Assembly (NCBI GenBank): GCA_029834535.1
Contig: JAQMWT010000605.1
Location: 1 to 45,093 of the forward strand
DNA: 45,093 nucleotides
Origin: Chrysophaeum taylorii
Lineage: Eukaryota > Sar > Pelagophyceae > Pelagomonadales > Pelagomonadaceae
Direction of reading: 5' to 3'
Position numbers and translations under genes: made by a program. Position 1 is the first letter of the stretch; every line of letters starts with the position of its first letter. The notes below the pieces were generated by a model. That model was not told the DNA's origin. It ran no database searches and saw nothing but the letters and a program-made list of their open reading frames with translations. Below, piece by piece: positions 15,277-38,597 of this stretch.

Positions 15277-15424
15277 CCCACGGGCATTTTTGGATTGCCA
15301 GCGGATCGGAATTCCGTGAGTGCTGTTTTTACAGCGACAGACAGCGTTGTTGTGATCAACGTGCATTACTTCGAGTGATCGAATCCGGACTTGTTCCGAG
15401 ATTCCTCATCGACATTGATACAAT

Positions 15425-17235: not shown

Positions 17236-18728
17236 TCTTCTACACGACAGCGAGACGGACGATCGCCTTCTAGACGATCGTCGCGCCGACACCGAAGTAA
17301 GAGCCTTGATCAAAAGGCCAATAGTCCTACATCAAGCCCGAGCCCCCGCCGTCGCCGCCATAGCCGGAGCTCTAGTCGCAATTCGCGCCGGCGCAGACGT
17401 CATCGACAGCGCGATGACGAATATGACGGAGGCCGATATCAGGATAGTTCGGGACATTCGAGCGCAACTTTCGCGTTCCAATCTCTATGCGCAGCGCGGC
17501 CATCGTCGGTGTTGTCTTTTACCCGACGGCGCCCCCCGCCCGAGTCTCCGATGATGTTGCCGATACCGCTGTGACGAGCAGCCATCGCTTGCAACAGGAG
17601 CAAAATACCACCAACGCTCGGATCGTTCGGTGGCCTTCTACATCGTACGTGGAAGCAATATCAGATGCAACTTTGGATTCTCCGCGCTACTGGGAAGACT
17701 CACACTCGGAGACCAACGAACCCATGCCGCAGGTTCCAGTGTCCCCCCATTTTTCGATGTGCATGTCTTGCAGGGCAGTTCACGATGATGACGTTAGACC
17801 TTTTGAGTTGACGTCGGGGACGACGTCCTCTTTTCCTACGCCCCCCCCCGAAAGTGCTTTAGCCGATGTATTAGCCGATGTTTTAGCCAATACAGTTTTG
17901 GTCGCAGCAGAGCAGACCACAGCGGCGCCGATGGAGGAGAAGTGGATGGGAATGTCCGATTTGATGGACGAGAAACGAAAATTATCAGAGGAGACAAAGG
18001 AGGAAGTATATGTGCCTCCGATTGAGAAGTGTCAGAATTTGTTGCCAGCGAAACTGGGGAATGAGGAAGCAGCCGAAGCGGCGAGCGCCAATATAGATTC
18101 AGAGGCGAGATGTGGGACGCCAGATATGGCAGCGGTGACGATGCAGATTCCGGGCGATGCGAAACCGGAGATGCGATGTCATCACACTGCACTTTCGCCG
18201 AGCGATGGGGAAAAGATCGAGCAAGACCTCATCACCATCGGTTGTCTGGACCCTGGTACACTTACGTTCATAGTTGGTCATATTTACAGACTACGAGACG
18301 GGCCGAAGTTCGCAACGACTTTAGGCGTGGATGGGATGGCTAATGTCTCCTATATTTGTCGTGGGATGGTCGAAAAACAGACAAAGGATAATAAAATCCC
18401 TGACCGAGGCGATCTCCCAGTCGAGCGCACCCTGTGCGGGTCAGGATTGAACAAGACGACTATCCACAAATGGGTCGCATTGCGAATTGCGCTCGCGGAC
18501 GCCGTGGCCGTTCCAGTGGTTGCCATTGTGGCCGATACTAATCACCTATTTCTGCTGGGAGCGCGCGATATTCGGGTGTTGGGAGCCATAGTGGACTACC
18601 CGCGAAATCGCATTGCGCTTCTCCGCACACAAATCGCTTATGGGCGCAAGAAGTTAAAGGTGCAGGATCGACGAGTCGATTCTCCGATTTTGACGTTCAG
18701 AACAACTGATGACGAGCGTTCCAAATAA
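17236..18728 (+). pseudogene. Element A: basic RS-rich linker and retropepsin-like region, 3' truncated
   Basis: After the TAG the original frame (still joined to gag in the mirrored copy) encodes an Arg/Ser-rich tail (RQRDGRSPSRRSSRRHRSKS and similar). From about 17487 a 413-codon frame runs to 18728. Its C-terminal third has VPVVAIVADTNHLFLLGARD followed by IRVLGAIVDYPRNRI, which resembles the second half of a retropepsin (flap and LG.D.L..LGA..D elements); the catalytic D-T/S-G triad is not clear (ADTN may be its relic). Reverse transcriptase and integrase are absent: the element ends at about 18715-18730 where element B begins in the opposite orientation. The segment from about 17900 on is identical at the protein level in both arms. 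Confidence 0.5.
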
Positions 18729-19965
18729 AGCCACCAATTGCGACAAGCTTGTTTGCAACCATACCAAGAGCGACGGAGCTTGTAAACGATTTTGGAACCA
18801 TCGGTGGGTTGGCGAGGAGCATAGCCTTCGGGTGGCCAGACATAGATGTCTTCGTCAATGGGAGCTTGAATAAAAGCGGAGCTGACATCCAACTTGTGCA
18901 AATCCCAGTCATGAACAGCGACAAAGGTTAGAAAGAAACGGATCGTGACGATGTTGGCAACCGGTGAGTAGGTGTCATGATAATCAATGCCGTGAACCTG
19001 GGTGTAACCGCGGACGACGAGGCGAGCCTTGTACGATTTGAAGCGGCCAGAGTCATACTTCTTGCGGAGGATCCACTTGAGGGTACAAATGTTGCCAGAA
19101 AAAGTCGAAGGAAGGCGAACAACATCCCAGCAACCAAGCTGACCAAGGGAGCTATATTCTTTAGCGATGGCTTGCAACCAGCCAGGACGCTCAGGATTGG
19201 TCTGAGCTAAAGCTTCACGTAAATGGGTGGAAGTAATCGTAGTTTCGTCAATGTATGAATACTGAGAGATTTCTTCGGAAGCAGGGTAATAAACGTGTGC
19301 ATGGGGATCAACAAGGGTGTTAGCTAAACAAAGGGGAAGGAAGACATAATGAACTAACAAACGAAAGCTAACATAAGAGACATACAAAGAGTTACAGGAG
19401 GAAACAGAAGCGACAGAGGAAACAGAATCGACATTGTGACAGGATGAAACAGAATGGCCCGTATAAAAGTTTGTTGGTTGTTGTAACGCGCGTTGGTCGA
19501 CTTTGCGCGGTCGGCCCCGTCTGGCGCGACGTAATGGTGCACGTTTCGTTTGTCCGGTAACATTTGGGTATCCAGTGACGGTTGAGTTGTTTCAGGGGTG
19601 ATCAGTCCCGATAAGGCCGGCTCCTGAGCATCAAAAACAGAAGACAAGGGCGCCACAGCGGAAGATAAACGAGGGTCGTAATAAAATAAGTCAGGAAAAC
19701 GAGAATCCACTAGAGACGGAGGAAGGGGTTGAGAGGACAGAGACTCACGCAGAGCGAAATTTTCGTCAAAAACAACATCAATCGAGGTGTGGATGACAGG
19801 ACCTGTGGGGCGTTGAAGTAATATGCGATATCCAGGGCCTGCAGAGGGATACCCAATGAAGATACCGGTTATAGCTTTGGTAGGCCATTTGTCGCCAGTA
19901 AGAATTGCAGCAGGACAGCCCCAAACACGAAGAAAATCAACACGGGGGAGAGTCTCATGTAGCAT
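18638..19965 (-). pseudogene. Element B: Copia integrase C-terminal linker and 5' part of reverse transcriptase
   Basis: Read leftward, MLHETLPRVDFLRVWGCPAA is the Copia LR.FGC block that follows the integrase core; with the upstream TPYE it would restore TPYEMLHE if the retroposon at 19971-20340 were removed. About 200 codons of linker follow (IDVVFDENFALRESL). The reverse transcriptase begins around GWLQAIAKEYSSLGQLGCWD and includes LKWILRKKYDSGRFKSYKAR, LVVRGYTQVHGIDYHDTYSP, HKLDVSSAFIQAPIDEDIYV and SWYGCKQACRNWW. These are fingers and palm blocks of a Ty1/Copia enzyme, with the first catalytic Asp (LDVSSAF). The YVDD box and RNase H are missing because the element breaks off at about 18720 against element A. 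There is a frame change near 19370. Confidence 0.85.
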
Positions 19966-19970
19966 TTCAC

Positions 19971-20340
19971 ATAACTAACTAACTAACTTCAGACCTCTCC
20001 CGAGCATGGGAGCCAGGCCGGACCGACAGGAGCCAGTCCGGACTCACGGGCCTGTAGACGAGGAGCGCCGAAAGGTCGGTCGGCGGAGAGTGACCATCAA
20101 GCTTGTCGCCATGCGACGAGGAGACCGCGATGCGACTGACAACCAACTCGTCGATAACCTTCCGTCTTCGCCCCGCGGCCATACCCCGTCCCACTGCGAA
20201 CGTTCCGGCTGCCAACCGGCCCGCCCGGGAGGCGAATAGGTGCCAACCTACGCCGGGAGGGCGGATGCCCTCGCAAGGCTCAGGATTCATGAGGCACCGT
20301 CCTCCATCGCAACCACAGTCGGCGATCAGGGCAAGGGAGT
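19971..20340 (-). mobile_element. TTAG-tailed retroposon, longer copy, inside element B
   Basis: A 370-base insertion separating TPYE from MLHETLP of the Copia polyprotein. On the minus strand it runs from about 20340 to a tail of four GTTA repeats at 19972-19988. A second copy at 26022-26158 shares exactly the tail end and is cut short at the other end, the pattern of 5'-truncated LINE/SINE copies made by target-primed reverse transcription. The flanks CATATGAA and TTATGTGAA suggest an imperfect target duplication. TGGTTGCGATGG near its 5' end is one mismatch from a Pol III A box, but no good B box is seen. It could equally be the 3' end of a longer LINE. Confidence 0.65.
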
Positions 20341-22898
20341 TCATATGGCGTCATATATCCAGGATTAGAGGCATTTGGCATACGCTCAGATATGAAGTCA
20401 GCCGTTTCCATGGCCCAACGCCAAAAATCAGGTGGACGGTGCGCATGTCCCAAAAGAGTGCGAGTAATATCAGCAGTGGCGCGATGAGAGCGTTCCACAA
20501 CACCGGAAAAAGCGTGCGCCTGTGAAGTTTTGGACTGAGCTGCAGGAGCACGTTTGAGAGCGATGTTGTTGCCCAGACAGAAGGTTTCGAATTGGCCCAT
20601 AAGAGAGCGGTCACGATCGGTGTAGATGAGGGCAATGCGATATCCGAATGGGCGAACCACGGTAGACAGAAAAAGTTCGAGTTGACGAGCGTTCGTAAGT
20701 GCATCGTGGCGTGGAGCAAAGTAACGCGTGCGGCGGCGCGTATGATCATCGACAAACGTGAGGATCGCGCGATCTTGATATATGAAGGATGGGACGCCTG
20801 CAAACATGAAATCGGCGTGGATAATAAGGTAGGGCGCAACGGCACGTGGACGAGACAAAGGCTCGGAGGAAGGCAGCGAAGTGGAAGCGGAAGCATGAGC
20901 TTTACGTTGGCCAACATGCGCAGCATGCATTTTGCCGAGAGCACAAGCAGGACAAAAAGAAAGAGACGCGGAGCTCGGGAAAAACGGTGCGCCAACAGCG
21001 AGAGAAGACAAACGCCGAATATAGGGAGGACTATAATGACCAAGACGAGCATGCCAAAGGTCGAAGGTAAGTTGAGTGCGTTGAGACACAGCGGGAAACG
21101 CACAAGGGTCGTGGGCACGGGGGCAAGAAGAAAATGCCACAAAAGGTGAAACGAAGTCCGCGTAGGGCGCAGCGGTCGTATTGCCGATCCAACAGACGAT
21201 CAAAAGAAGACCACAGCGACGAAGCAGGGGAATAACGTGATGCGTTTGGCGGTGACGTAAAATACGTTGCGGATGAGCAGGGCCAACGGCCTGAATGGTG
21301 TGGCAATCGTAACCAACTTGCTCAAGGGCATGATCCGAAAGAATCCGTTTGTCACCAAGGCCAGGAGAGATGAGGGTATGCGGGAACGCGACATGGATAC
21401 CATGAGGGGCGGAAAGAGTGGGTGCAGGAGAAGGAAGACCACGATTGTCAAGAGGACCAATTGAAGGAAACGTTAAGTGAGCAGTGCCGGAACCGGAAAC
21501 CAAGCCAGTGCCGAGTGCAGAAGTGATGGAGTGATGCTGAGTATTGTCAAGGTCAGTGAAACCAAAGGAAGAGTTGAAAAGATCGACGTTTGCGCCGGTG
21601 TCATAGACAACGAGACGAAGGTTGGTGCTGTGAAGGTAGTCGCGCTCACGAGCGGTGAGCAGAGCGGTAAGGGCATTGGTGGAGGAAAGGACTTGGTGAA
21701 TGGAGGGGGAGATGGAAAGAAGATGGAAATTGAAAGACGGATAGGTGGGTGCAGAAAGAGATGGGTCAGGAAGGGAGACAGCGGTGGAAGGCGGGACAGA
21801 GGGTGTGGTGGAGGGTGGCAACGCAAGGAGCGGCGGAGAGGATTGAGATGGAGGCAAGAGTGGAATGGGGGCGGAAAGATAGTTTTGGTAGAAGGGTGGA
21901 TGGGGCCTAGGTGGGTAGTGGGGATTGGACCGAGGTGGGTATTGGGGATTTGACCGACGTGGGTATTGATATTGATGCCGAGGGCGGGCGGTGGCTTGTG
22001 AGAGCAAATAGCGCTGGCGCTTATGACAATCTTTCTGGTGATGGCCAGGAATACCACAAAAGTGACAAAGATCAGTATGGCGTGGGCGCTTGCGATGGAA
22101 ACCACGTGAAGATGAAGGTCGGTTACGGAAAGATGGTCGAAAAGATGGGCGAGGGCTAGAACGTTGTTGGAAGCGCAGAGCATTGAAGCGATGAAGGTAT
22201 TTATCAGAAGGATGGTTGGGATGACCGTAAAAGTTGGAACGTTCACGATGACGGGGACTTTCACGGAACGTAGCATGGACAAGCGCAGACTTGGTCTGAA
22301 GATAATCAAAAACTTTACTGTGGAGGCGATCAACGAAACCATCGTATGTGCGCAGTTTAGGATCAAGTGCAATGAGATCCTTAGACAAGAGCGAGTCGGG
22401 GATTTTCGTCTGAAGCAATTGCAATGCAAGTGTGTCAGGGGAATCTTGATGATGCCGAGCAACTTGAACACCAGTGATGAACTTGTTAAGAAAAGACTCA
22501 AGTTCATCGATATTGTTGCACACCAAGGAATGCAGTGAAGCAATTGCAGACTGAGCGACACGATCTCCATGGCCCATGTAAACATCAGTAATGCGCTTGT
22601 AAAGGCGCGTGAAGTTCATATCGCGGTTTTCACGGATATCCGCACGATCAGTATCATGCATTGGTAGCGCCATGAAGAGTGCACTGTACCAGCGTTGCTG
22701 CTTGAGACCAACTTCTTCTTCAGAGCAGCCAGAGACGGAAATGCTAGTCCAAGTGTCAGTGGTCAAGATAATGCGATCACCGGTGGAAATGATCATGTTT
22801 TCCAGGCGATGGGTCCATTGGTGAAAAAGATGTCGCTCACCACTGAAGGCATCGAGTTTTTGCGAAAGCGTGCTATCTTTAATTTCGATCGAGGACAT
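20335..22898 (-). CDS. Element B Copia-type Gag-protease-integrase polyprotein, interrupted at 3' end
   Basis: Open frame starting upstream at 22922; MSSIEIKDSTLSQKLDAFSG at 22898 is the likelier start (positions below count from 22922). Residues about 20-220 are a Copia Gag (UBN2-type); the zinc knuckle CHFCGIPGHHQKDC (CX2CX4HX4C) is at 286-299; a Pro-rich stretch follows. The aspartic protease has VVYDTGANVDLF at 438-449. The integrase zinc site is H624, H629, C657, C660 and the catalytic triad is D703 (IIHADF), D769 (YTDRD) and E810 (GVVERSHR). The frame reaches TPYE at about 860 and then runs into the retroposon at 20340 and stops. It is the best preserved gene of the window: no internal stop over more than 850 codons. 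Without the reverse transcriptase, which is truncated downstream, the element cannot move alone. The mirrored copy at 34791-36905 is much more damaged. Confidence 0.9.
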
Positions 22899-23572
22899 GA
22901 TAAACGATAACGAACCGAACACGTAGCAATGAACTGAAGCCGATGAGGTGTCGCCACGAAGTCAAGCAGAGGCTCAACCGCGGAGAACACCTGCTGCCAT
23001 GTTACGACTGGAATGAGGCGTTAGACTAGCCATAAGAGAAAGACGTAGGGATACTGGATACGTGGTGATACGTGGTGCAGGGGTAAGTGTCATAGCTTCC
23101 TCACATAACCTATGGGTATTGGGCTGTTACCGCGCCGGCCCAGCATCGCCACGTAAACACGCTTGTGAATATTACGCCATTACCATTGTGCTGTATATAC
23201 CACATTTTGCACACGTGATCGTGTAACCTTGTGTGCACCTGTTCATAGTATCGTATTGTCATGTCAATGTTGATGTGTGTGTAATTGGCTAACCTGTACT
23301 CTTGCACACATGTTATGGAATATTTTGGGTACGTCCACTCGTACATTCCACGGCAATGCACTTAACAAGCTCCTTGAGAGCACCTGAAGTAACCAGCTGC
23401 CTCTGACTACGCTTAGCGACACTACGCTGGACCCACAGCTTGCACAGTCGTCAAATAGACATCTTTCCATCGAAAACGATGAGTGTAGATAGACACCGAT
23501 AGACAGACCCCCTTTGAATGTCTAGACAGTGTCAACTGCGTGACTGAACCCACAGGTTCCCCGTCAACTGCT
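22899..23572. other. Head-to-head 5' regions of elements B and C (LTR remnants)
   Basis: The gag ATGs of B (22898, minus) and C (23573, plus) point away from each other across 675 bases. Near 23000 the minus strand reads GTAACA followed by TGGCAGCAGGTGTTCTCCGC (about 22979-22998), which fits an LTR end in CA followed by a primer-binding site for B. That would leave B only about 110 bases of LTR before element C sequence begins near 23105, so B's LTR may be truncated. The right part has a TATA-like TGTATATACC at 23192-23201 and probably belongs to the LTR of C. Exact borders are not visible. Confidence 0.45.
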
Positions 23573-25075
23573 ATGGCAGAACACGCAGCACGAGCCGCAC
23601 CCAAGGCGATCACAGGTGCGGATATATTGAAGCTCGAAGCTCCTGTAGTTGAGTTTCTTAACGATGGAAATCGATTTCAGCTTCAGACTCGCAAGGTATC
23701 CTTGCAAATCAAGCACATTAAGCAATTGTTACGGTCCAGTCAGGCCGATGCTTTCCTCGGGTACGACTCGTACGAAGCATATACTCGGTCATGCAAGGAC
23801 TACGAGATCCTCCGGAATCAAATTCTCGATCGCGTTTTCCTGGAATGGAAGACCGATTGGGCTGCTGATCTCCGTTTAGCTGTTGATGAATTGCCCCCTG
23901 AGTATCAGGAATGGCATTTCACCAACGAAGCTTTCCCCAACTTACTTGATGCAGAAGTAGCTCAGCTAGCTACTGTCTGTTACGACTATGAAGTCAAGGC
24001 ATTACGTCCTGAAATCAATGCCCGTTTCTTATAAGAGGAACGAATCTTAAATCGCGAGCACCCGAAGGCATTAGCTTTCGACACCCGTGTTCGTGCCCCT
24101 GTTACTATGTTTTCGTTAACTGCCGCTGACTGGCACACTTATCAGAACACGTATGCTACATTCTTGCATACTTACTTCAATCTTGAAAGTGTTGGAAAAC
24201 CAGCACTTGCGGCCTGGTCCGCCATCAATGAGGCATATAACAAAAGTTATTTACCCAACAAGGCTCGAGCCATTATGCTCATCGCCTTTAGTCACTACGA
24301 GTCTGTTACGACTACTGATGTGTCCTATTTGAAACAGCAATTTAACTCTGTTGTTTATAATCCTAACTGGTATGTCCATGTATTTATCGAAGCTGTCCTA
24401 GCATTTAGGCAAATCTCTTACCAACTTAACCAGGAAGAGACTGACCTTCAATTCGACTTTGGTACTCTTTGTATAAAAATTTATGAAGAGATACATCGGC
24501 ATTATGCCGATAATACCAGCAACAATCGTTACGATCGTGGTTGGGTAGATTGGTGTTATATGTATGAAACCCGATCTTCATCTCGGCCTGTGCCAGAAGC
24601 TGAACGATTGTGTCACCCTACCAACCCTAGCTACATTTTAGAATACGCATTAGACTTATATAATGTAGTATCAAATGGGTCGAACAAAAGACGCTTAGAA
24701 CGCCCTGTTTCTTGGCAACCCTATGTCGAAGGTTTATCATCTCAACCAAAGCCAAAGTTACTACTTACAAACACGCTGGATTTAGCAGACAAAAGTCTGA
24801 CTCAAACTGCTAACACACTCGCCTTCATCACTGCGTCGCAACCTGGTACATCTTCCACGTTTAATGCTAGACGCTTGCGTAACTCTAATGATGCTCGCCA
24901 GCCTTTCTCTCGCAGCGACTTATCGTATTATCGTTCTGGTGATTCTTACGTCACCAAGAAAACTGCTGGACAGTCCCATGACCGTCCAATTTACCCCCGC
25001 ACTTTTGACAGGTCCTCTCGGTCTAACATGAAATTTTTAGATCGAACAAATCTGACCTTAAACACCCTGCGATAA
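23573..25075 (+). pseudogene. Element C gag, one in-frame stop
   Basis: The frame reads from ATG 23573 (an earlier GTG at 23540 is also in frame) to 24034, hits a single TAA (24032-24034), continues in the same frame through EERILNREHPKALAFDTRVR and stays open to 25075. The protein begins MAEHAARAAPKAITGADILK; blocks such as LLRSSQADAFLGYDSYEAYT and WHTYQNTYATFLHTYFNLES give about 500 residues of predominantly helical sequence. I recognise no named domain; position upstream of protease, methyltransferase and integrase makes it the Gag of this element. Base composition is more AT-rich than the Helitron and element A. The sequence is not disrupted except by the stop and by the duplication that follows. 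Confidence 0.65.
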
Positions 25076-25087
25076 CAGTGTAGTGAA

Positions 25088-25221
25088 CTTACGAAGCATG
25101 TGACAGATAATGATTCCACGGCTCAGCTACAACAGAATATCAACAAGTTATTTGCTTACGAAGCATGTGACAGATAATGATTCCACGGCTCAGCTACAAC
25201 AGAATATCAACAAGTTATTTG
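25088..25221 (+). repeat. 67-bp perfect tandem duplication
   Basis: Two adjacent 67-base copies beginning CTTACGAAGCATGTGACAGA. Because 67 is not a multiple of three it throws the reading frame of element C; the coding frame resumes in the second copy (LTKHVTDNDSTAQLQQNINK). The degraded mirror at about 32810-32900 also shows two copies, so the duplication predates the inverted duplication. Confidence 0.9.
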
Positions 25222-26021
25222 AGACTCTATTACAATCAGCTGACATTCTGTCAACGACATCTACTGAGGACAACAGTAATTTACTTCGTCTAAACGAACA
25301 ACTCATGTTTGCAGAAGACATCATTTATGATGTAGACGTTCATCTATCCTCGACCGAAAAGTCGTTAAACTACGTGGAGCCACAACACCATACTGTTGTT
25401 ACTGCTCCCACCCCAAAGGCAACTCCTCCTACTACAGGCTCGAAGAATGCCCCCAACACACAGGGTAATCCCTCCAATATTGTGCCTAACCTCTTTACTG
25501 CTTCCGCCATCTCGGCTTTACCACCAGCGTTACTGTCCTCGCTATCTTCACAGGTCCAATCTGCCCTCAACCTACCACCACAAGCCGAAACCAAAAGGGA
25601 TGCCGATCATACTTCGCTATCGTCATTTGATGAAAAGCACGGCATGGCTGATGAGGCTGACGAACCATCACCACCTGTTCAACCGATAATTATTCCAACG
25701 AATCTGCTATTGCTGGAGAACTTCTTCACAGCCAGCCTCTCCACTACTTGCCCACATTCGGAAAACGCCTTCCTCACCAACTACATGAAGGTAAACAGTG
25801 TCCCTCCACATTGTTCCTTTCTATATTTGACTCTTGTGCTACCATCTCATTGATGTCCACTTACGATTTTACAATACCCAATCATATTATTCCACTGGAC
25901 TCCAAATACGCGCCGATTGTTATTCAAATAGCCACTGGACAACAACGTGCCTCACACATGATGTCAACACGTAACATTGTTGTTCCCCTACCAGATCATC
26001 CACAAGTTGGCTATGTTAAGA
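25158..26021 (+). pseudogene. Element C: Gag C terminus and aspartic protease remnant
   Basis: From the second duplication copy the frame gives LTKHVTDNDSTAQLQQNINK, a leucine-rich segment, then a Pro/Thr-rich linker (to 25853). After a frame change near 25760 the sequence reads LFLSIFDSCATISLMSTYDF and PIVIQIATGQQRASHMMSTR. The core FDSCATISLMS fits the catalytic D-S/T-G-A loop of retropepsins except that Gly is Cys (DNA about 25829-25840), and ATGQ..A would be the second strand. Processing of a Copia polyprotein needs this enzyme; the G-to-C change and the frameshift imply it is inactive in this copy. The reading ends at YVKT where the retroposon at 26022 is inserted, and continues beyond it. 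Confidence 0.55.
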
Positions 26022-26158
26022 CTAACTAACTAACTAACTTCAGACCTCTCCCGAGCATGGGAGCCAGGCCGGACCGACAGGAGCCAGTCCGGAATCACGG
26101 GCCTGTAGACGAGGAACGCCGAAAGGTCGGTCGGCGGAGAGTGACCATCAAGCTTGTC
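26022..26158 (-). mobile_element. TTAG-tailed retroposon, 5'-truncated copy, inside element C
   Basis: Matches 19972-20108 nearly base for base, from the GTTA-repeat tail inward, then stops after AAGCTTGTCG. It is flanked on both sides by GTTAAGA (26015-26021 and 26159-26165), a clean 7-base target duplication. Shared tail end, variable other end and target duplication are what target-primed retroposition leaves. Confidence 0.75.
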
Positions 26159-28456
26159 GTTAAGATCGACTTCGCTTTATGTCTTCAGCCAGTGCACGAC
26201 CGACATCTCGCTATCCTGAGCATGCTCGAGTGGAACCAGACGAACCTGACCACTGTGTTCAATGATCGAGCTGAGCCAAAGCTCAGCGCTGTCACGAGCC
26301 GCATAGACAAAGATGTGCGTATTCCCATACACTACATAGCAGCTAATTTGCCGGCTCTCCCTTGTCTCACCTACAACATCGCTCGCGACAAGCAACTCGA
26401 ACTTCGTTCCCTCGCATTTCCCCTCAAGCGATACCATGAAAACAGGGATCTACTGGCATACTACAACTACCTACTCCGAAGAGTTTTACCAGATCGCCCG
26501 TGGATTCGCCCTTTGGTTCTCAATCTTCGGAATCAGAACAAGTTTGTTCAACAAAACACGCAACCATTAACCTGACTACTCTCACGCCCAGTGTTTCTCT
26601 CACAAGAGTCCAATCCCCGCAAACCCTCTGTAATGTTACTTTGTTCTGGTTTGTCAACTCCGGCGTTCCTGTCTCAAGCCAATATATCAAGGTAAAAGTT
26701 GTTGTTGAGTCTGATGATACGCTTGTTCGTATGTTACGCCACCGTTTCCCTACTGTATTATTATTTGAATCTCTTCCCGCCTTTATTAACCATCTTCACC
26801 TAATTTCACCAGAGGAAATGCGCAAATTCCATAGTGATATAATTGAGATTACTCCTCCCTGCACGAACAGGACTCTACTAAAGCAGCATAAGACAGAAGA
26901 CTTACACAGCCTGTTAGACGATTCTCTTTTCGACAGCATGCTGTCAGTCATCAAGTTACTCCAGCCCTTGGTACTACTGGCTGAGATGACGCCTCCGCAT
27001 AAGTACTGTCATCAAGACCACATCACAGTGGCCAACCTCATCCATACTACACTTGATTACTGTGTCGATGTTGTTGATAGGTTCCCGACCTACCTCTGTG
27101 GCGACTACCAATCTAGAGAAAGATGGATATGCATCGCACGCAGGTATTCTACTGGACCAATTAAAGTATTGTCGTGGCCTATCCTCCATCCACGCCCCTT
27201 CCTAAAGATCGTGGATGATCTACAAGCTATTCCCAAGCGCCTTTGGCTACCTAACCACGTATCCAAAGACTGGATCCGGGTGTTCCCCGATCCTCCATAT
27301 GTCCCCGTTCCTAAAACTCTTGCACCTTACTCTCGCACAGGTTCTGTTCAGCTTACTATGGCTGACCTTGAATCCCTCAATATGTTACTGCTTCGCCTTC
27401 GCTCACAACAGGCTCACGAGCAACGTACTCACTCTGTTCAATCCGAGTGTACTTATCATCAGCTGTGCTTTAAACGCTCCTCTATGGAGCCGCTACCCAA
27501 TGCAACCTACCCTATACACGTCAAGGTTTTTACAATCCTCTATAACTTGTTTGCCAGCTTACACACTAACTCACCCACTCCTGTGTCTTATTACATAACC
27601 GTTTTCGAAACTAACCAACCGTCACACAGGTTACTACTTACAACCTCATCAACATCACACAACTCCCACTTCTTAACTGGTGGCCACCACTCTGACGGCA
27701 ACCTCACCATAGAGAACGCCGCCACCAAATATCATGCTTCCATTGACGCGTTTGGAAGCACGTATACGTTCACTGCCTCCGACGTCCCCCCGCGACCGGG
27801 ACAGGTCCATATATTTGGAGCCGTTTATGGGTTACTTGTGGATAGTCCAAGCCCCTCCTCAAGTTGGCTCCGCTGCCACCTATGGCACCGCCATACAAAA
27901 GCTCTTGTCCAGATGCTCTCTTGTGATGCCTGGCTGCCTTACCTACAAGGCCACCGACAACTCTTTCGACTACAAGGATTCTCATTTTGCTCTGGAAGAT
28001 CACCACTTATCTCATAGTCGCTATATAGGGTACCTTCGTGGAAGTGACCGCAAACTCGGCTCTAAAATCCACTCCATGCATGCTCCATTGCCCACCGTCC
28101 GAGGGTACGCCAATATTATTTTACTCGACCCTCGCAACGGGAAATTACGCTACCCCACTCGACCGGAGTTGATTCGTGCTAACAACCACACCAAACAACA
28201 GGAATCTTTCCTCTTGTCTCTACGCCATGACCTTTGCTGTGACATGCTCAGCAATGCTCTGCCTGCCGGTACGTACAGCACTCTGTACAAGCACCTTTCG
28301 CTCCTCGTTGCCGATATTAAATCCCTTATGTTGGACCCTACCTTCCAACATACTGCTGCCGTGACGAAGAAATCCTATGTATCCAATTTCATGACCGTTG
28401 ACCAAGCTTCCACCACGTGCAGCACAGATACCTTGTCTTTGGCACAATCTTTATGA
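26159..28456 (+). pseudogene. Element C: DNA (cytosine-5) methyltransferase-like region
   Basis: Coding resumes after the retroposon (KIDFALCLQPVHDRHLAILS), shifts frame near 26540, then shows the ordered motifs of a cytosine-5 DNA methyltransferase. In the frame open from 26500: VTLFWFVNSGVP at residues 46-57 sits where the SAM-binding motif I belongs; VVESDD at 68-73 (motif II); DIIEITPPCTNRT at 113-125, with the catalytic Pro-Cys at 120-121 (motif IV); LLAEMTPP at 159-166 (motif VI, usually ENV); YLCGDYQSRERWICIARR at 198-215 (motif VIII QxRxR). A long target-recognition-like stretch follows; after a frame change between about 27900 and 28017, HAPLPTVRG (28076-28102) and RYPTRPEL match motif IX and LSNALPAG (about 28247-28270) motif X. 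Such enzymes methylate cytosine C5. Two frameshifts make this copy non-coding as it stands. A tail of about 60 codons leads to integrase. Confidence 0.75.
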
Positions 28457-28611
28457 TGTCTATTTCCACCAACTGCTTGACCGAAATGTCGTTGAACTAT
28501 ATATCTTCGTCCTACGAAGATACTCTCGCTACTCGTGATGATGAGGATGCACCTCCAAGTGACCCTGCTGCGCACCAGGATGACGACGCACCGCCTCCCC
28601 TGCCTTAGACA

Positions 28612-29996
28612 CCGAACTCAAGTTCGATGTTCGGCGCAAACGGCATATTCCCGCTCATCCCATTCCTCGTAAGTCCCTCGCACACGGATCCACCGAATAT
28701 CTCAATGCCAAAGAACGTGCCAATCGCTTCCACCGGGTGCATCACTGCCCCGACAACGTCGCTGCCAAGGCCCCCAACGTACTTGCTCGCCCTGGATTCT
28801 CTGCTTCTGACATACCATATCGCGACTTATGCACCGACTGCATCGCACACAACAAGCGCCACCCGCACAAGCATTTCAATGCGACCAAGCCTTCATTTGA
28901 GCAAACTCACAAAGCCGGCGAAGTCTGGGCGTGCGACGGCGGCTATGTGACCATCCCATCCGAATGGGGAGGCTTCACACATATCATCGTCTTCAAGGAA
29001 CTCATTTCGAAATTTCTCTTGGTGTACTTTACACGCACCACCAACGCCACGGAGTTCACTCAAGCTCTGGATTTTGTGTATGACTTCTGTCGTACACAAC
29101 TCAACGTGCACATGCGCACCCTCTACTCCGATGCCTTCAAGCCCTACTTTAGCCAGCACATTACCTCCCCGTACCGCGTCGATAAGGGCATTCAACTCAT
29201 CGCCTTCCCGCCGTACATGCACCACTTTAACTTTGAAGTTGAGTCTGCCATCGGTTTCATCGCCGCCTCCTAAACTCGCCTTCGTTCTCTCCTTAATGCT
29301 CACTATCGTGGCGCCAAGATCGTGGAACCCGCTATCATGTTCCCATGGGCGGTGATACACACCGTTCAAAGCTACAACCTTCTCCCGAACGCCACGCTCG
29401 AGCGCATTCATCATGCTATTCTGAGTCCGCAACAGCTACTCTACAACCAACTCAACACTCCCCAACACGATATGCTCAAGATTTTTGGCGCTGAATGTTA
29501 CCTCCTATTGGAGCCCCATGAACACCACAAGTGGGAACCGTGCCGCCGCAAATATCTGTATCTCTGTTGCGCCAACGCGCAAAACCCGCTCGTCTCCCCA
29601 CGCGTCGACCATCTCGCTGACGTCGTCCTCAACCCTGAAAACGGACAAATTCGTGTTTCGTCCAAGCTGCAATTCCTCTACATGCTTCAGCATCCTACTC
29701 CTGATCCTGAACTTGCTCCTCCGCCTCACGCTCCTCCCGCGCCTTTCTCGCTCACACCCCACGCCGCTATCCAAGACCATGTCATTCAGAGGGGGACACG
29801 GACTCCTCATCCTCAGAGGGGGCACTCCCCACCTCCTTCAGCTCCTTCTTCGTCCCCTGCTCCTGCCTCTTCTCCCTCTTCTGACGCTCGCCGAAGATTC
29901 TGGCTCTATGTCACCGCCGCCCTTGCTTCCTTTACATGCTACTTGTGTTGCAACACTGTGAGGTATGAGACCAATAGTTTCGGCGCCAGAATGTGA
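28612..29996 (+). pseudogene. Element C: Copia-type integrase and linker, one in-frame stop
   Basis: In one frame: NAKERANRFHRVHHCPDNVA, then YRDLCTDCIAHNKRHPHKHF, the His-His-Cys-Cys zinc site of integrase, then the core with EVWACDGGYV (first Asp), MRTLYSDAFKPYFS (second Asp) and FNFEVESAIGF (Glu). A single TAA (29271-29273) interrupts; the same frame goes on with TRLRSLLNAHYRGAKIVEPA, LLPNATLERIHHAILSPQQL and LKIFGAECYLLLEPHEHHKW, the Copia sP..LL......L.vFG...Y block, and a Pro/Ser-rich linker. Integrase joins the cDNA to the host genome. Reverse transcriptase and RNase H would come next but the sequence turns back on itself here: the inverted arm begins within about 29935-29970. Confidence 0.75.
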
Positions 29997-32900
29997 GCAC
30001 CATCGTGATTGAGGAGTATTTTTATTGATTTGTAAACAACTGTTGCGAACCAGTAGCATGATAACGTGCCGAAGAAGATTGCCAACACGGTGATATCTAC
30101 CATAATCGCGAGTTCAACCAACGATGAGAGAACAGGCGGTTAGAAGACATTTCAAGTTAAAGTGTTGAATATACGGCGAGTCCACTTCGGCGCCTGATTT
30201 TGGTAATGTGCTGAAGACTGGTCGTCGGGCGCAGAAGAGTGCGCATCGTACCGCGACCCAGTTGACACGACTGAGAAGTCATGCAAATCAGAGCAATCCG
30301 GCGTCTGCGTGTGCGCAAACTCGGGTAATTCGTGATATGATGAAACCACCATTCGATCGCCGCCGTCGCAGGCGCGGTTTAACAAGTGAAGGCTGATCTG
30401 CTGTGCGGAGGCGCTGTTGTTGACTCGTGGCACAATCAGTGGCACATTGAAAACGCAATATTGTTGATGTCGGGCGTATTGCACCCAGTAGGCATTGGCG
30501 TTAACGGCACGTATATTCGGTAGATCCGTGCGCCAACTCCCGAATATGCCGTTGCGCGAACATCGAGCGGTTCATTACAAGGCGAAATGTGCGTCGTCAT
30601 CTGGTGCATTATCGTACGAGCAACGAAATATCTTCGTAGGACGAATATGGATAACGACATTTCGATCAAGCGGTGGTGAAATAGGTGTGGGCTGAACATC
30701 TGTGCTGCACGTGGTGAAAGGGTCAACGTCATGGTGAATACGCAAGTTTCTCGTCGGCATGGTAGTCAACAGAAGATTTAATATCGGCTGGCGACAGTAT
30801 GTACAGGCACTGGCGACGCGAGCATCAATGCGCAGGTGGCGAGGAAGGACCTGTTGTTTTTGTTGATTCGTCAACTCCGGTCGAAAATCGGCGTGCAGCT
30901 AATTTCCGTTGGTCAAGTAAATAATGCCCGGCTTCAGTGGTGACAATAGGCGTATGGAGATAGTTTTGGTATTTCGAAGATTTTATATAGCGCTTTATGA
31001 AACAAGTGGTGATCTTCAAATGGTAAAAGCCCGTCGCGAGGCAGCCAGCATGCCAGCTTTGCTGGCGGTGCCAGCAGGTGATATCCTGGCGTAACAAGCG
31101 GCTTCAAATATAACTGAGGCCTCAATCTCGAAGGAAGCGGCTGGTGATATTACCGTCCTTAAGCATGATACCCAGTGGTGGCGTTATGGTAGGTGCACCG
31201 TCAGCCTTTATTAGAATTGAAATTTATGTGATGTTGATGAGGTATGGCGTGACATTGGTGAACTTTCGAAACGGTATACAGGGTGGTAGGTAATAATAAC
31301 TTTAACAGCTGAAACCATGAAGTAAAAAACCTTGACATGGCTATAGTAGATTTGACAGTACGCTCAGAAAGACGTTGTACAGCTGATGACGCACTCGGAT
31401 TGTAAAATGTCGTGGCTGTTGTGACGTGCATACAATAACGCGTGAGGATTAGGTCGGCATATGCGAGATTTGGGGCTGAGGATCATACCGGATGTCTTTG
31501 AATGTTAGGTAGCAAACACTGAAGGTAACTTGTAGATACGATCTTCGAAGAGGTGGTAGTGATGAACACCACTGCGTGCGATACAGTAGTCGCCACGAAG
31601 TGAGTCGAGACTATCAGATATTGTATGTATGATTGGCACCTGTGATGTTGATCTTGATGACTTCTGCAGGCGTCTCAGCCAGTGACGGCATGCTGTCAGC
31701 AATCACATGCTGCTGTAAGTCCCTGATGAAAATTATATCACTATGAACGCGCATTCCTGGTGAAAGTAGTGAAGATGATTGAAGGCGAGCTTCAATAATA
31801 CGTGAGAGAAACGACTGTTGCCACGAACAACGTAATCTGCTTTACCTTGATATGACTATTGGGCTGCGATACAAAAACCAAGTAAAAATAACGACCCAGA
31901 AGGTTTGCGAGATTAGATCTTGTGAAGAAAGCGGTAACGGCGGTCGTGCACTGGCTGAACATATAAAGCGAGGTCGATCTTAACGACAGCTTGATGGTCA
32001 CTCCTCCGCTCGACTCGGCTGCCCTAAACGTTCACCGTGATCCTGTCAGTCCGGCATGCTCGAGTGAGACCAGTTAGTGGATTGGTCTTAACATAACCAA
32101 CTTGTGAATATTCTGAGCAGAGAACAACAATATTACGTGTTGACATCATGTGTGAGCACGTTATTATCCAGTAATATTTGAAATAACAATCGGCGCTCTG
32201 CGAGTCCGGTGAGTAATATGATGGGGCAAACCAAATCATAATTGAACATCAATGAATGATAACTGTAGAAAGGGGCTGTGTGGAGGAAACACTGTTTACC
32301 TTTCGTGAGCTTTGGCAGTGTGAGCAGAAACAGTGGGCGGCTACGGCAGTGGCTACTCCAGCAATCGCGGAACTGTTGAATAATAATCGGTTGAGCGAGC
32401 GGTGATCAGCCATGCCAGCTCGTCAAATGATGACGATACTTGTATGATCGGCATCCACTGAACGGCTAGTGACCTGACTGGAGACGAGCAGTTGAACCTG
32501 TGAGGCTAGCGAGGTTTGTAACGTGGCTAGCTGAGATGGCGGCAGCCAAGGGTTAGGCTGTGTGGAGGATTTTTGTGTGGGCCGAGCATTCTTCAGCCTA
32601 TAGTAGGAAGGAGATTGCTCCTTTTCGTGAGCGTAACGGCACGGTATGGTGTTGGTAACTTCCACAGCTGACTCGGTGAAAAGATAGATGAACACATCAT
32701 AAATGATGTCTTCTGCAAACATGGTTGTTCGCGAAATGGCTGTCCTCCGTAGGTGTAGTTGACGAAATGGCTTGTTGTAATAAGTCTCAAGCTTCAATAA
32801 TCAACGAGCGTCAGAGTCATTATCTGTCACATGCTAAACTAACAAATAACTGTTGATGACCTGACAGCAACGAGCTTCGTGGGTCATTATCTATCACGTG

Positions 32901-34790
32901 TACTTTCATGGATTCACTACACTGTTGCTCACCCGGGGGTAATTTAGGTCGAATTTGTTCGATCTAAAATTCATGTTAGGCGCCGAGGAACCTGTCAAAA
33001 ATGCGAAATATTGAACGGTCATGAGACGTCCAGCGATTTTTCTTAACGGTGACTTAGACCAGGAACGTGGCGACAAGTGGCGGCGAAGACCGGCTGTATC
33101 ATTATAGCGTCTAGCCAAACGTGATTATGCCGGGTACATTTTGTGAAGGCAGTATTGTTAGCAGGCCCCAGTCTGACTTTGCTGCTAAATCCAGCGTCAT
33201 TTATAGTAACAGCTTTGGCTAGTGGTTAACCGTCGACATGAGTTGCCAAGCAGCGGCCCTTCTAGCGTCTTTTGTCATTACGACTAATACATTATATAAA
33301 TTCTAATGCATATTCTAAAATGTATAAGACAACAAGTGACACAATCGTTCAGCTTCTACAACACAGGCAGCAACGTCGGGTTCGCATATAACGCAATGCA
33401 ACCACGATCGCAACATTGCTATTACTATCGCATAATGCCGATGTCTCTCTTCATAAATTTTTATACAAGAAGTACCAAGAAATCAGTCGGCGGTCTCTTC
33501 CTGATTGTAGAATGACCAGGGCCCCCTTTAATCTTGGGACAGCCTCGATGACCATGGACGACATCAGTGAGATTGCGTAACAGGGTTAAATTGCTGTTTT
33601 CAAATAAGTCATGGCTGAAACTCATGTGACAAAGGCAATGACATAATGGCGTAAGTAACTTTTGTTACTATGCCTCAATGGCGGACCGAACACACAGCTG
33701 GCACACTAGATTCAGTAGTAATAAAGGCCCTTACATGTTTTATTCAAGTCGGTCGAGGCATTAACGAAACATGTGGCTGAGGCACAGGCTACAGTGATCA
33801 GCCTGTACCGGAGTGCTCGCATTCTGCGCCAGAAACGGGCATTGATTTCGAGACGTAATGCCTTGACTTCATAGTCGTGGCTGGGCAGTAGCTAGCTGAG
33901 CTACTTCTGCATCAAGCTGGATTGAGGCTTTCGTTGGTGAAATGCCATTCTGACTACTCGGGAACATTTAATACACGGAAATCAGCAGCGGCGATCTTCC
34001 ATTCAGGAAAACGCGATCAGCGACTCGAAGATCTCATCTGCATGACCAGTATATGCTTCGTACGAAGTCGTACCGAAGCATCGGCCTGACTGAACCGCAA
34101 CAATTGCTTAATGATAGCGATTACTGAGATGCTGCAGTCTGAAATCATTTCCAGCGTTAAAAGCAGCACAGGAACTCGGCTCAATATCACACCTGTGATC
34201 GCGAGCGTCATTGCGTGTTCTGCCATAACGTGACGGGGAAACACAATGATTCAATCACGCAGTGAACTGACAGCATTCAGGGAACAATCTCAGCTCGTGT
34301 CTATCTACGCTAAATGCGTTTTCGTGTCTGACGACGACTGTGCTGTGAGGTCCAGCAGTGTCATAAGCGTAGTCGGGGCGGCTGGCACTCGGAATAACTC
34401 TCAGGCTTTGTTAAGATGCATTGCCTGAATGCAGTGGTTATATATTCCATAGCTATGATGCACAGAAGGCGGGGCCAACCAATTACACACATGAGCGGTG
34501 ACATGACAACATTACTATGAACAGGTGCACACAGACACGATGCGTGTGTATGCCGCAATGTAATGGCATCACAAGCGTGACACGTGGCGTGCTGGGCACG
34601 GCACTGTGCTCAATACCCTTAGACGTGTGAGCTTATGACACCACCCCTGCACCACGTATCACCACGTATCAGTATCCCCTACGTCTTTCTCTTATGGCTG
34701 GTCTAACGCCTCATTCCAGTCATGCTATCGGCAGCTACTCCGCGGTTGAAACTTCTGCTTGACTCGTGGCATTACACTCATCGGCTAATT
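29966..34790 (-). pseudogene. Degraded mirror copy of element C
   Basis: No open frame above about 180 codons, but reverse-complement reading follows element C from end to start. Recognisable pieces include the integrase linker (30000-30050), the start of the integrase region (ACGGCATATTCGGGAG near 30535-30550), CGAAATATCTTCGTAGGACG (30614-30633), a trace of the protease-to-methyltransferase region (30700-31980), gag (MFAEDIIYDV at 32690-32722; VMAEHA at 34212-34226) and the 5' region (34560-34790). Damage is mostly small deletions: the segment is 12-14% shorter than its partner over 25.3-22.9 kb equivalents and 35-43% shorter over 29.4-26.1 kb equivalents. No catalytic motif of the methyltransferase survives recognisably. 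See findings for the question whether this decay is biological or a sequencing artefact. Confidence 0.75.
31981..32090 (+). mobile_element. Degraded mirror of the truncated retroposon
   Basis: TTAACGACAGCTTGATGGTC then CAGTCCGGCATGCTCGAGTG, CAGTTAGT and GTCTTAACATA correspond, in reverse complement, to 26015-26165 including its flanking GTTAAGA. It shows that the insertion into element C preceded the inverted duplication. Confidence 0.7.
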
Positions 34791-36905
34791 CATGCTACGT
34801 GTTCGGTTCGTTATCGTTTATCATGTCCTCGATCGTAAGATAGCACGCTTTCGCAAACTCGATGCGCTTCGATGAGCGACATCTTTTCGCAATGGACCAT
34901 CGCCTGAAACTGCTGATCATTTCCACCGGTGATCATCTTGACCACTGACACTGAACTAGCCGTTCCGTCTCTGGCTGCTCTGAAGAAAGTTGGTCTCAGC
35001 AGCAACGTGTACAGTGCACTCTTCATGGCGCTACCAATGCATGATACTGATCGTGCGGATATCCGTGCCGCGATATGAACTTCACGCACTGGCGCATTAC
35101 TGATACATGGGCCATGGAGATCGTGTCGCTCAGTCTTGCTTCAACTGCATTCCGGTGTGCAACATATCGATGAACTTGAGTCTTTCTTAAAAGGTCATCA
35201 CTGGTGTTCTTCGTCATCAGAATTCCTGACACTTGCATTCAATGCTTCAGACGAAAATCCCCGACTCGCTGTCTATCTCATTGCCTGATAACTGCGCATA
35301 CGATGGTTTCAAAGTTGATCGTAAGTTTTGATCGAACCAATTGCGCTTGTCCATGCACGTTCCGTGAAAGTCCCGTCATCGTGAACGTTCCAACTACGGT
35401 CAAATCCCAACCATCCTTCTGATAAACTTCATCGCTTCAATGCTACTGCGCTAACAACGTTCAGCCCTCGCCTTCTTTTCGACCATCTTTCCGTAACCAT
35501 TATCTTCACGTGGTCCATCGCCGCCCACGCCATACTGATCTTTGTTTTTGTGGTATTCCTGGCCATCACCAGAAGATTGTCATAACGCCAGCGCTATTTG
35601 CTCTCAAGCGCCCTCGGCATCAATATCAATACCCACGTCGGTCAAATCCCCAATACCCACCTCGGTCCAATCCCCACTACCCACCTAGGCCCCATCCACC
35701 CTTCTACCAAAACTATCTTTCCCCCATTCCACTCTTGCCTCCATCTCAATCCTCTCCGCCGCTTCTTGCGTTGCCACCCTCCACCACACCCTCTGTCCCG
35801 CCTTCCACCGCTGTCTCCCTTCCTGACCCATCTCTTTCTGCACCCACCTATCCGTCTTTCAATTTCCATCTTCTTTCCATCTCCCCCTCCATTCACCAAG
35901 TCCTTTCCTCCACCAATGCCCTTACCGCTCTGCTCACCGCTCGTGAGCGCGACTACCTTCAGCACCAACCTTCGTCTCGTTGTCTATGATACCGACGCAA
36001 ACGTCAATCTCTTCAAGTCTTCATCTGGTTTCACTGACCTTGACAATACTCAGCAGCACTCCATCACTTCTGCACTCGGCACTGGCTTGGTTTCTGGTTC
36101 CGGCACTGCTCACTTAACGTTTCCTTCAATTGGTCCTCTTGACAATCGTGGTCTTCCTTCTCCTGCACCCACTCTTTCCGCCCCTCATGGTATCCATGTC
36201 GCGTTCCCGTACCCTCATCTCCTGGCCTTGGTGACAAACGGATTCTTTCGGATCATGCCCTTGAGCAAGTTGGTTACGATTGCCACACCATTCAGGCCGT
36301 TGGCCCTGCTCATCCGCAACGTATTTTACGTCACCGCCAAACGCATCACGTTATTCCCCTGCTTCGTCGCTGTGGTCTTCTTTTGATCGTCTGTTGGATC
36401 GGCAATACGACCGCTGCGCCCTACGCGGACTTCGTTTCACCTTTTGTGGCATTTTCTTCTTGCCCCCGTGTCCATGACCCTTGTGCGTTTCCCGCTGTGT
36501 CTCAACGCACTCAACTTACCTTCGACCTTTGGCATGCTCACGATGCACTTACGAACGCTCGTCAACTCGAACTTTTTCTGTCTACCGTGGTTCGCCCATT
36601 CGGATATCGCATTGCCCTCATCTACACCGATCGTGACCGCTCTCTTATGGGCCAATTCGAAACCTTCTGTCTGGGCAACAACATCGCTCTCAAACGTGCT
36701 CCTGCAGCTCAGTCCAAAACTTCACAGGCACGCTTTTTCCGTGTTGTGGAACGCTCTCATCGCGCCACTGCTGATATTACTCGCACTCTTTTGGGACATG
36801 CGCACCGTCCACCTGATTTTTGGCGTTGGGCCATGGAAACGGCTGACTTCATATCTGAGCGTATGCCAAATGCCTCTAATCCTGGATATATGACGCCATA
36901 TGAAC
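34791..36905 (+). pseudogene. Mirror copy of element B Gag-protease-integrase, broken
   Basis: Follows 22922-20335 in reverse complement. The first about 800 bases (to about 35600) are riddled with small deletions; beyond that the copy is nearly collinear. The zinc knuckle survives only as FCGIPGHHQK. The protease loop reads VYDTDANVNLF where the left arm has VYDTGANVDLF, so the conserved active-site Gly is replaced. A clean deletion of about 339 bases joins LTFDLWHA directly to HDALTNARQ (near 36540), removing the integrase Cys pair and the first catalytic Asp; the rest of the integrase (YTDRD, RVVERSHRA) is present. It ends at TPYEL before the retroposon. Non-functional. Confidence 0.85.
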
Positions 36906-37270: not shown

Positions 37271-38597
37271 GTGAAATGCTACATGAGACTCTCCCCCGTG
37301 TTGATTTTCTTCGTGTTTGGGGCTGTCCTGCTGCAATTCTTACTGGCGACAAATGGCCTACAAAGCTATAACCGGTATCTTCATTGGGTATCCCTCTGGC
37401 CCTGGATATCGCATATTACTTCAACGCCCCACAGGTCCTGTCATCCACACTCGATTGATGTTGTTTTTGACGAAAATTTCGCTCTGCGTAAGTCTCTGTC
37501 CTCTCAACCCCTTCCTCCGTCTCTAGTGGATTCTCGTTTTCCTGACTTATTTTATTACGACCCTCGTTTATCTTCCGCCGTGGCGCCCTTGTCTTCTGTT
37601 TTTGATGCTCAGGAGCCGGCCTTATCGGGACTGATCACCCCTGAAACAACTCAACTGTCACTGAATACACAAATGTTACCGGACAAACGAAACGTGCACC
37701 ATTACGTCGCGCCAGACGGGCCGACCGCGCAAAGTCGACCAACGCGCGTTACAACAACCAACAAACTTTTATACGGGCCATTCTGTTTCATCCTGTCACA
37801 ATGTCGATTCTGTTTCCTCTGTCGCTTCTGTTTCCTCCTGTAACTCTTTGTATGTCTCTTATGTTAGCTTTCGTTTGTTAGTTCATTATGTCTTCCTTCC
37901 CCTTTGTTTAGCTAACACCCTTGTTGATCCCCATGCACACGTTTATTACCCTGCTTCCGAAGAAATCTCTCAGTATTCATACATTGACGAAACTACGATT
38001 ACTTCCACCCATTTACGTGAAGCTTTAGCTCAGACCAATCCTGAGCGTCCTGGCTGGTTGCAAGCCATCGCTAAAGAATATAGCTCCCTTGGTCAGCTTG
38101 GTTGCTGGGATGTTGTTCGCCTTCCTTCGACTTTTTCTGGCAACATTTGTACCCTCAAGTGGATCCTCCGCAAGAAGTATGACTCTGGCCGCTTCAAATC
38201 GTACAAGGCTCGCCTCGTCGTCCGCGGTTACACCCAGGTTCACGGCATTGATTATCATGACACCTACTCACCGGTTGCCAACATCGTCACGATCCGTTTC
38301 TTTCTAACCTTTGTCGCTGTTCATGACTGGGATTTGCACAAGTTGGATGTCAGCTCCGCTTTTATTCAAGCTCCCATTGACGAAGACATCTATGTCTGGC
38401 CACCCGAAGGCTATGCTCCTCGCCAACCCACCGATGGTTCCAAAATCGTTTACAAGCTCCGTCGCTCTTGGTATGGTTGCAAACAAGCTTGTCGCAATTG
38501 GTGGCTTTATTTGGAACGCTCGTCATCAGTTGTTCTGAACGTCAAAATCGGAGAATCGACTCGTCGATCCTGCACCTTTAACTTCTTGCGCCCATAA
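37271..38597 (+). pseudogene. Mirror copy of element B linker and reverse transcriptase start
   Basis: The linker (37271-37843) has small indels relative to 19387-19965, for example a broken LRVWGC block near 37310. The reverse transcriptase frame (37848-38597) is identical to the left arm over all 249 residues, including LKWILRKKYDSGRFKSYKAR and HKLDVSSAFIQAPIDEDIYV. As on the left it ends at CRNWW, where it meets element A in the opposite orientation (about 38510-38520); YVDD and RNase H are missing. The perfect identity here contrasts with about 95% in the neighbouring element A gag. Confidence 0.85.

Follow-up and report, generated by a model that had tools for sequence, protein, structure and literature searches.

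A 45,093-nucleotide stretch of the alga Chrysophaeum taylorii (assembly GCA_029834535.1, contig JAQMWT010000605.1, positions 1 to 45,093; hereafter the window) carries on its plus strand the remains of a Copia long terminal repeat (LTR) retrotransposon in which a region resembling cytosine-5 (C5) methyltransferases lies between a gag-protease-like open reading frame (ORF) and the integrase. An initial annotation, made from the letters alone, had placed such a gene at 26159-28456, and its position between protease and integrase on one strand was borne out in the window and in the family to which the element belongs. We consider it probable, at roughly 80%, that this region is what remains of a C5-cytosine-methyltransferase homologue which a Copia LTR element captured and kept as the first domain of pol, a reading that rests on sequence comparison. 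The features of the remnant, located with copies of the same family elsewhere in the genome (L009, L012, L013), are as follows.

23102-29932, plus strand: methyltransferase-bearing Copia remnant (blastn to L009, L012 and L013, 89.6-95.3% identity over the main blocks)
23483-26027, plus strand: gag and the beginning of the protease-like region, with frameshifts (found with the L013 gag-protease-like ORF, tblastn)
26028-26158, no strand: foreign repeat within the protease-like region (gap between L013 blocks)
26573-26575, plus strand: TGA, followed by CTA, at the junction of the gag-protease-like ORF with the methyltransferase-pol frame (family comparison)
26576-26680, plus strand: opening part of the methyltransferase-like domain, including motif I, LCSGLST (26639-26659, frame 2; tblastn of L009, 91.4% identity)
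26686-27789, plus strand: methyltransferase-like domain, motifs II-VIII and the variable part after them (tblastn of L009, 91.0%)
27788-28453, plus strand: methyltransferase-like domain, motif IX-like and X-like part (tblastn of L009, 95.5%)
28584-29273 (ORF), plus strand: HHCC motif (by eye) and putative integrase core (Pfam rve, E 5.8e-4, 20.5 bits, cut-off 32.6)
29274-29996 (ORF), plus strand: SH3-like domain (SH3_retrovirus, E 1.9e-5, 24.9 bits, cut-off 27)

The methyltransferase-like domain extends from 26576, right after the TGA, to about 28480, and is recovered by tblastn as the three pieces listed plus a short one at 28450-28590, all 89-97% identical to one open frame of L009. The start at 26159 given in the initial annotation proved to be the edge of the foreign repeat insertion, and the last part of the gag-protease-like ORF occupies 26159-26572. 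In the motif numbering of the C5-methyltransferase family, the domain holds motif II (VVESDD, 26701-26718), motif IV (EITPPCTNR, 26845-26871), motif VI (LLAEMTPPH, 26974-27000) and motif VIII (GDYQSRERW, 27100-27126), followed by a IX-like block (YPTRPELI, 28151-28174) and an X-like block (LSNALPAGT, 28247-28273). Thus ESD, PPC, the Glu of motif VI, QxRxR and the IX/X-like blocks are all present on one strand and in C5-methyltransferase order, as had been proposed; LFWFVNSG, then taken for motif I, is out of frame, and motif I of the family is LCSGLST.

The window protein matches at least 82 places with long alignments, the window included, in the 70.8-Mb assembly of 697 contigs (87 rows, of which five are short pieces), a lower bound since 82 of 1546 candidates were scored; the possibility of one odd copy or an assembly chimaera was thereby ruled out. 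That the assembly is from a photosynthetic alga of the red plastid lineage is indicated by 84 light-harvesting match rows and by the one light-harvesting complex (LHC) protein tested, whose nearest chains among the best 60 of 365 matches are, after multi-domain LHCI chains, of FCP/VCP type; a search with an 18S end pattern gave no match. Twenty copies of 7.5-9.9 kb each were fetched, chosen from the 82 places for long open frames. A copy with a single reading frame, which the initial annotation had suggested looking for, was found in L009: one 1691-amino-acid frame comprises the methyltransferase-like region, rve (residues 784-866, E 0.0076), SH3 (E 5.6e-4) and RVT_2 (1431-1651, E 7.7e-42), the rve and SH3 matches being below cut-off, and the integrase lies upstream of the reverse transcriptase (RT), in keeping with a Copia carrier. 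RVT_2 was also found in L013 (E 8.4e-42) and L024 (E 8e-42), and the 3' piece of L009 was judged by eye to hold RNase H. The rve match is below the Pfam cut-off in every scanned frame where it is present, and the HHCC motif (by eye) and SH3 adjoin it. The three copies whose ends were inspected all have LTRs of 316 bp bounded by TG and CA, with pair identities of 92.7% (L009), 93.7% (L027) and 98.1% (L024), and are flanked by 5-bp target duplications that are exact in L027 (GATCC) and L024 (GTTAC) and agree at 4/5 positions in L009 (GATAA/GATAG). Computed from its LTR positions, the L009 element is ~11.9 kb long. The protease of the family was recognised by eye from FDSCA (FYSCA in L012), with no Pfam match. 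None of the copies read has an ordinary Copia linker in place of the domain, one of the two findings that the initial annotation had named as refutations. The 3' part of L027 also holds a 662-amino-acid open frame (L037 1659-3644, minus strand), Cys-containing and coiled-coil-like, for which Pfam gave weak coiled-coil-like matches only, all below cut-off.

Homology of the domain to C5-methyltransferases was shown, at the level of sequence, through bridging relatives. Protein searches retrieved an MMETSP product (P0001; 43% identity over 53% of the query), then P0002, followed by P0003, P0004 and P0005, the last a canonical enzyme labelled cytosine-5 methyltransferase by its source and scoring 198.1 bits against the Pfam family PF00145 (DNA_methylase). 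With the curated cut-off of that family at 22 bits, P0002 (23.0 bits) and P0004 (24.3 bits) pass, and P0001 (20.2 bits, E 4.4e-4) and P0003 (17.7 bits) fail; in alignment A1, three of the eight members match PF00145 at E<=1, P0001 best. P0004 in turn matches the window directly at 26809-27408 (E 1.2e-15, 33% identity). Residues 7-198 of P0001 align at 28% identity, in the best tblastn rows, to viral-contig sequences; of 526 stretches matched by pattern, 93 were confirmed and 80 retained, and the three of these 80 tested with Pfam all proved to be PF00145 (134.8, 135.5 and 72.2 bits). An eight-row alignment from the window to P0005 has as invariant columns E49, D93, P100, C101, L121, P134, E140 and P143 (P0001 numbering), among them the motif II acid, the motif IV PC and the motif VI Glu. 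When the entire assembly was searched with P0001, P0002 and P0004, 105, 143 and 94 places were listed, with best identities of 44, 41 and 36%; having no close match in this genome, these proteins come from other organisms, so that the domain occurs beyond this species. We also observed further domain sub-lineages absent from the places listed for the window query, for example on contigs C81, C474 and C428, where P0001 matches at ~41-42% identity and some open frames are long.

The catalytic positions are strictly kept. The motif IV Cys, motif VI Glu and motif VIII Q, R and R show no variation in 20/20 copies, in motif I, a stretch present in 19 copies, 2 of 133 cells differ, and motif IV PC, VI Glu and VIII Q/R/R occur in this order in all 20 copies as well as in P0001, P0002 and P0004. 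Ratios of nonsynonymous to synonymous divergence (dN/dS) were computed pairwise by the Nei-Gojobori method among the 20 copies, whose selection for open frames lowers the values somewhat; alignments below 70% identity, stop codons and pairs with dS <=0.02 were dropped, which kept 190/190 pairs for the whole domain, 188/190 for motifs I-VIII, 152/153 for the integrase (18 copies) and 99/105 for the RT (15 copies). The median was 0.248 over the domain as a whole (ratio of summed dN to summed dS, 0.242) and 0.165 for motifs I-VIII (summed, 0.146), compared with 0.178 (summed, 0.280) for the integrase and 0.239 (summed, 0.235) for the RT. These values show purifying selection, with the domain under constraint like that on the adjoining integrase and RT.

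A search of the genome with PF00145 returned 124 match rows at E<=10, the best two of which are host genes; six of the other places were read. Four loci represent a second Copia lineage with motifs GLHQEG, CEI, LPC and ENV (PF00145 scores: L031, 46.6 bits; L032, 34.4; L035, 39.7; L039, 30.0). In L039 the methyltransferase domain and RVT_2 (E 8.6e-28) share one frame, its RT and that of L009 have 39% identity, and a single BLAST stretch links the two copies from the motif IX-X part through the integrase. Comparison of the second lineage with the window family by hhalign gave E 8.4e-7 (probability 91.5), a profile-profile comparison with a single Dnmt2 sequence gave E 0.094, and a PDB search with the second-lineage profile gave C5 methylases, M.HhaI for example, with E values from 0.044 upwards (10 sequences at E<=10). 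One capture before the two Copia lineages split would be the simplest reading of these similarities.

A separate, Gypsy-like family (L033, 25.1 bits; L034, 34.1 bits) has its own C5-methyltransferase-like domain with a canonical motif I. It resembles the Copia family in that the domain follows a gag-protease-like part (by eye) and, in L033, precedes the RT, here an RVT_1 frame (E 1.2e-13); it differs in its element class (RVT_1), its canonical motif I and its separate group in the tree. Upstream of L033, a 1252-amino-acid frame (L040), gag-protease-like by eye and with no Pfam match at E<=1, overlaps the L033 frame in its last residues. The host genes were taken by eye as Dnmt2 (L029, 69.6 bits) and DNMT5 (L030; one frame of more than 2000 residues, motif I MCSGTEAP, TSC for PPC). 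Both share C5-methyltransferase motifs with the Copia domain, and that taken as DNMT5 likewise has a motif I without the second Gly; unlike the Copia domain, neither lies in an element.

In a tree of 15 rows with long branches, without DNMT1 or DNMT3, the domains of L033 and L034 form a pair (100/100) that groups with Dnmt2 (96/92) and not with the Copia domains; the tree points to no source for the Copia domain. The proposal of the initial annotation that this would be a distinct capture may be retained on the strength of the element class and of this small tree without DNMT1 or DNMT3. We also put forward, tentatively, a broader scenario in which Copia and Gypsy-like elements may each have captured a C5-methyltransferase separately and at the same point of the polyprotein, behind the protease-like region, the Copia capture being old and obligatory and cytosine methylation a step of the replication cycle, with the enzyme released alongside integrase and RT by UGA readthrough; the Copia capture would be old and obligatory because it predates the split of the two lineages, with their RTs 39% identical, and occurs beyond this species.

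The TGA at 26573-26575 is a property of the family, being found at the junction in 25/25 distinct places (28 rows, of which three repeat a place), and the codon after it is CTA in 18 of the 25, ATA in three, ATG in two, and CTG and CCA in one each. Since UGA CUA is the high-readthrough consensus in humans, according to the portion of PMC4359377 consulted, readthrough is the first choice among possible mechanisms, and the pol product with its methyltransferase domain is probably a minor one, made by readthrough of a conserved UGA in a leaky context. Re-initiation and a separate start are the alternatives; the P0001 ORF starts with Met at the matching point, so a separate start is also allowed. 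The host gene taken as Dnmt2 ends in TGA, which indicates that TGA serves as a stop. A comparable arrangement is that of Tca2 of Candida albicans, in which UGA separates gag and pol and, as described in the consulted part of PMC2194720, the sequence flanking the UGA is not enough for readthrough in Saccharomyces cerevisiae; the alga family differs in that its TGA is mostly followed by CTA and its pol opens with the methyltransferase-like domain.

Several observations weigh against a captured and functional methyltransferase. The PF00145 search that the initial annotation had proposed as its check, and whose failure it had named as the other refutation, was negative for the window ORF itself (E 0.23, 11.3 bits) and for the scanned copies of its own family (L012, 12.6 bits; L009 and L013, no match at E<=1), all under the cut-off, and positive for relatives, one of which, P0004, matches the window directly; PDB sequence searches with L009 and A1 gave no match. 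Motif I does not match FxGxG, the second Gly being absent from LCSGLST, motif VI is EMT rather than ENV, and motif VIII of the second lineage keeps one R only (SKxRY), so that the full catalytic set is not found in both lineages. P0001 ends ahead of motif IX, so a complete expressed domain is not seen. In the tree, the Copia domains and P0001-P0004 join at 87/89, below the usual 95, and the nearest rows outside the Copia group are P0005 with DNMT5 (93/89), a join flagged by the program as one of long branches. Finally, C/T differences among the copies are not enriched at CpG (4110/61218, 0.0671, versus 14758/224524, 0.0657; ratio 1.02). The missing Pfam and PDB matches of the window family are what a chance resemblance of an ordinary Copia linker to a methyltransferase would predict, but relatives above the Pfam cut-off, the match of P0004 to the window, the alignment of P0001 with viral-contig enzymes and the profile-profile match of the two lineages contradict it; moreover, an ordinary Copia element on the minus strand of the same window (20280-22961) passes in one frame from a protease-like motif to gag_pre-integrs (E 1.1e-9) with no PF00145 match. 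Chance resemblance is therefore extremely improbable and was rejected.

The order of the element is gag-protease-like ORF, UGA, methyltransferase-like domain, integrase, RT and RNase H (protease and RNase H by eye), and the domain would be made only with pol and travel in the particle with integrase and RT. There the most natural role for it would be to methylate cytosines of new element cDNA or of the target at integration, which we regard as possible and offer with reserve, and new copies would thereby arrive marked as resident, quiet DNA; the element might then govern its own silencing through methylation, as the initial annotation had conjectured. Rather unlikely in our estimation, the domain could instead be a Dnmt2-like RNA cytosine-5 methyltransferase acting on genomic RNA or primer tRNA in the particle. 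Selection on catalytic residues would suit any methyl transfer, CpG hypermutability is not seen (ratio 1.02), and the consulted portion of PMC5890265 raises RNA methylation for SymbioLINE-Dnmt, an enzyme that failed to methylate DNA in yeast; against this, the domain adjoins integrase and RT, which handle cDNA, and in the small tree, where its placement is weak, Dnmt2 joins the Gypsy-like domains (96/92) and not the Copia group. The departures of motif I from FxGxG and of motif VI from ENV, together with the erosion of motif VIII in the second lineage, would also fit a methyltransferase fold kept without catalysis as a nucleic-acid-binding or regulatory module, as in DNMT3L. We judge this unlikely, given that Cys, Glu and Q/R/R are kept in 20/20 copies and in P0001, P0002 and P0004, and that the second Gly of motif I is likewise absent from the gene taken as host DNMT5 (MCSGTEAP).

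The ratio of observed to expected CpG averages 0.97 in the 20 copies and is 0.98 and 1.00 at second-lineage loci, 1.15 and 1.31 at Gypsy-like loci, 1.12 for the window's ordinary Copia element and 1.38 and 1.44 at the two host-gene loci, and is thus lower in the methyltransferase Copia copies than at the host-gene loci. CpG loss as a trace of methylation was nevertheless rejected, since the C/T ratio of 1.02 gives no trace of CpG decay despite the lower observed/expected values. The lack of CpG-linked C/T change speaks against heavy CG marking of resident copies; a mark would be hidden if it were set in other sequence contexts, were transient or were offset by good repair.

The closest known system is that of the DNMT-bearing retrotransposons described by de Mendoza et al. 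(2018, PMC5890265), to whose LINE, DIRS and Gypsy carriers a Copia carrier is now added. The portions of that article consulted describe carriers of LINE and DIRS type in Symbiodinium and of Gypsy type in Klebsormidium (SymbioLINE-Dnmt, SymbioDIRS-Dnmt3 and KnitGypsy-Dnmt3), the DIRS and Gypsy ones with the domain in Pol and in the Dnmt3 clade, report de novo CG methylation by retrotransposon DNMTs, and state that Symbiodinium Copia elements are without any DNMT domain. The likeness is considerable, as in both cases the domain lies in the coding sequence of a retrotransposon with many copies, the key residues are kept and selection is purifying (Ka/Ks <0.2 in those passages; in the alga family, medians of 0.248 over the whole domain and 0.165 within motifs I-VIII). 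The alga family differs in its Copia carrier, in a domain that opens pol after a conserved TGA, and in its divergent motifs I and VI. A single clause in the part consulted of a 2025 paper (PMC12344493), citing PMC5890265, mentions DNMT3 members in LTR Copia and DIRS elements; no such element was found in the part of PMC9998398 consulted, and a literature search mostly without subscription papers and preprints yielded no further account of a Copia element bearing such a domain. The case belongs to a rare kind of gene capture, characterised earlier in other retrotransposon classes (LINE, DIRS, Gypsy) from one charophyte and one genus of dinoflagellates. The presence in this genome of a Gypsy-like carrier as well as a Copia one, the latter in two diverged lineages and with outside relatives, points to a repeated benefit, and the compact 70.8-Mb genome, the conserved TGA and the domain-free Copia elements available as controls offer a system for testing what a methyltransferase gives an element.

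The window copy itself is dead, as it has frameshifts and an internal insertion and lacks LTRs and RT. Its first matched base corresponds in L013 to a point ~45 bp beyond the end of the 5' LTR, and family similarity stops at 29932, ahead of the RT (blastn). A 67-nt tandem duplication at 25088-25221 interrupts the gag-protease-like ORF, and the foreign repeat at 26028-26158 matches positions 79-215 of L013, outside the L013 element, and window 20000-20108. Downstream, 28596-29888 is 97% identical to L009 (tblastn); an in-frame stop separates the integrase ORF from the SH3-like ORF, and the rve and SH3_retrovirus matches are both below the Pfam cut-off.

On both sides of the remnant, at 15419-18716 (plus strand) and 38519-41754 (minus strand), lies the gag-protease-like part of the Gypsy-like methyltransferase family, and Copia RT pieces at 18719-19252 (minus strand) and 38037-38516 (plus strand) stand on the opposite strand within a few bases of its ends. 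Together with inverted repeats at 21590-23084 and 34643-36000, this arrangement resembles a pair of inverted arms enclosing the methyltransferase Copia remnant. A distant gag-protease-like relative occupies 31925-34238 (minus strand) in the opposite orientation, with 27-34% identity in long stretches and no methyltransferase part detected.

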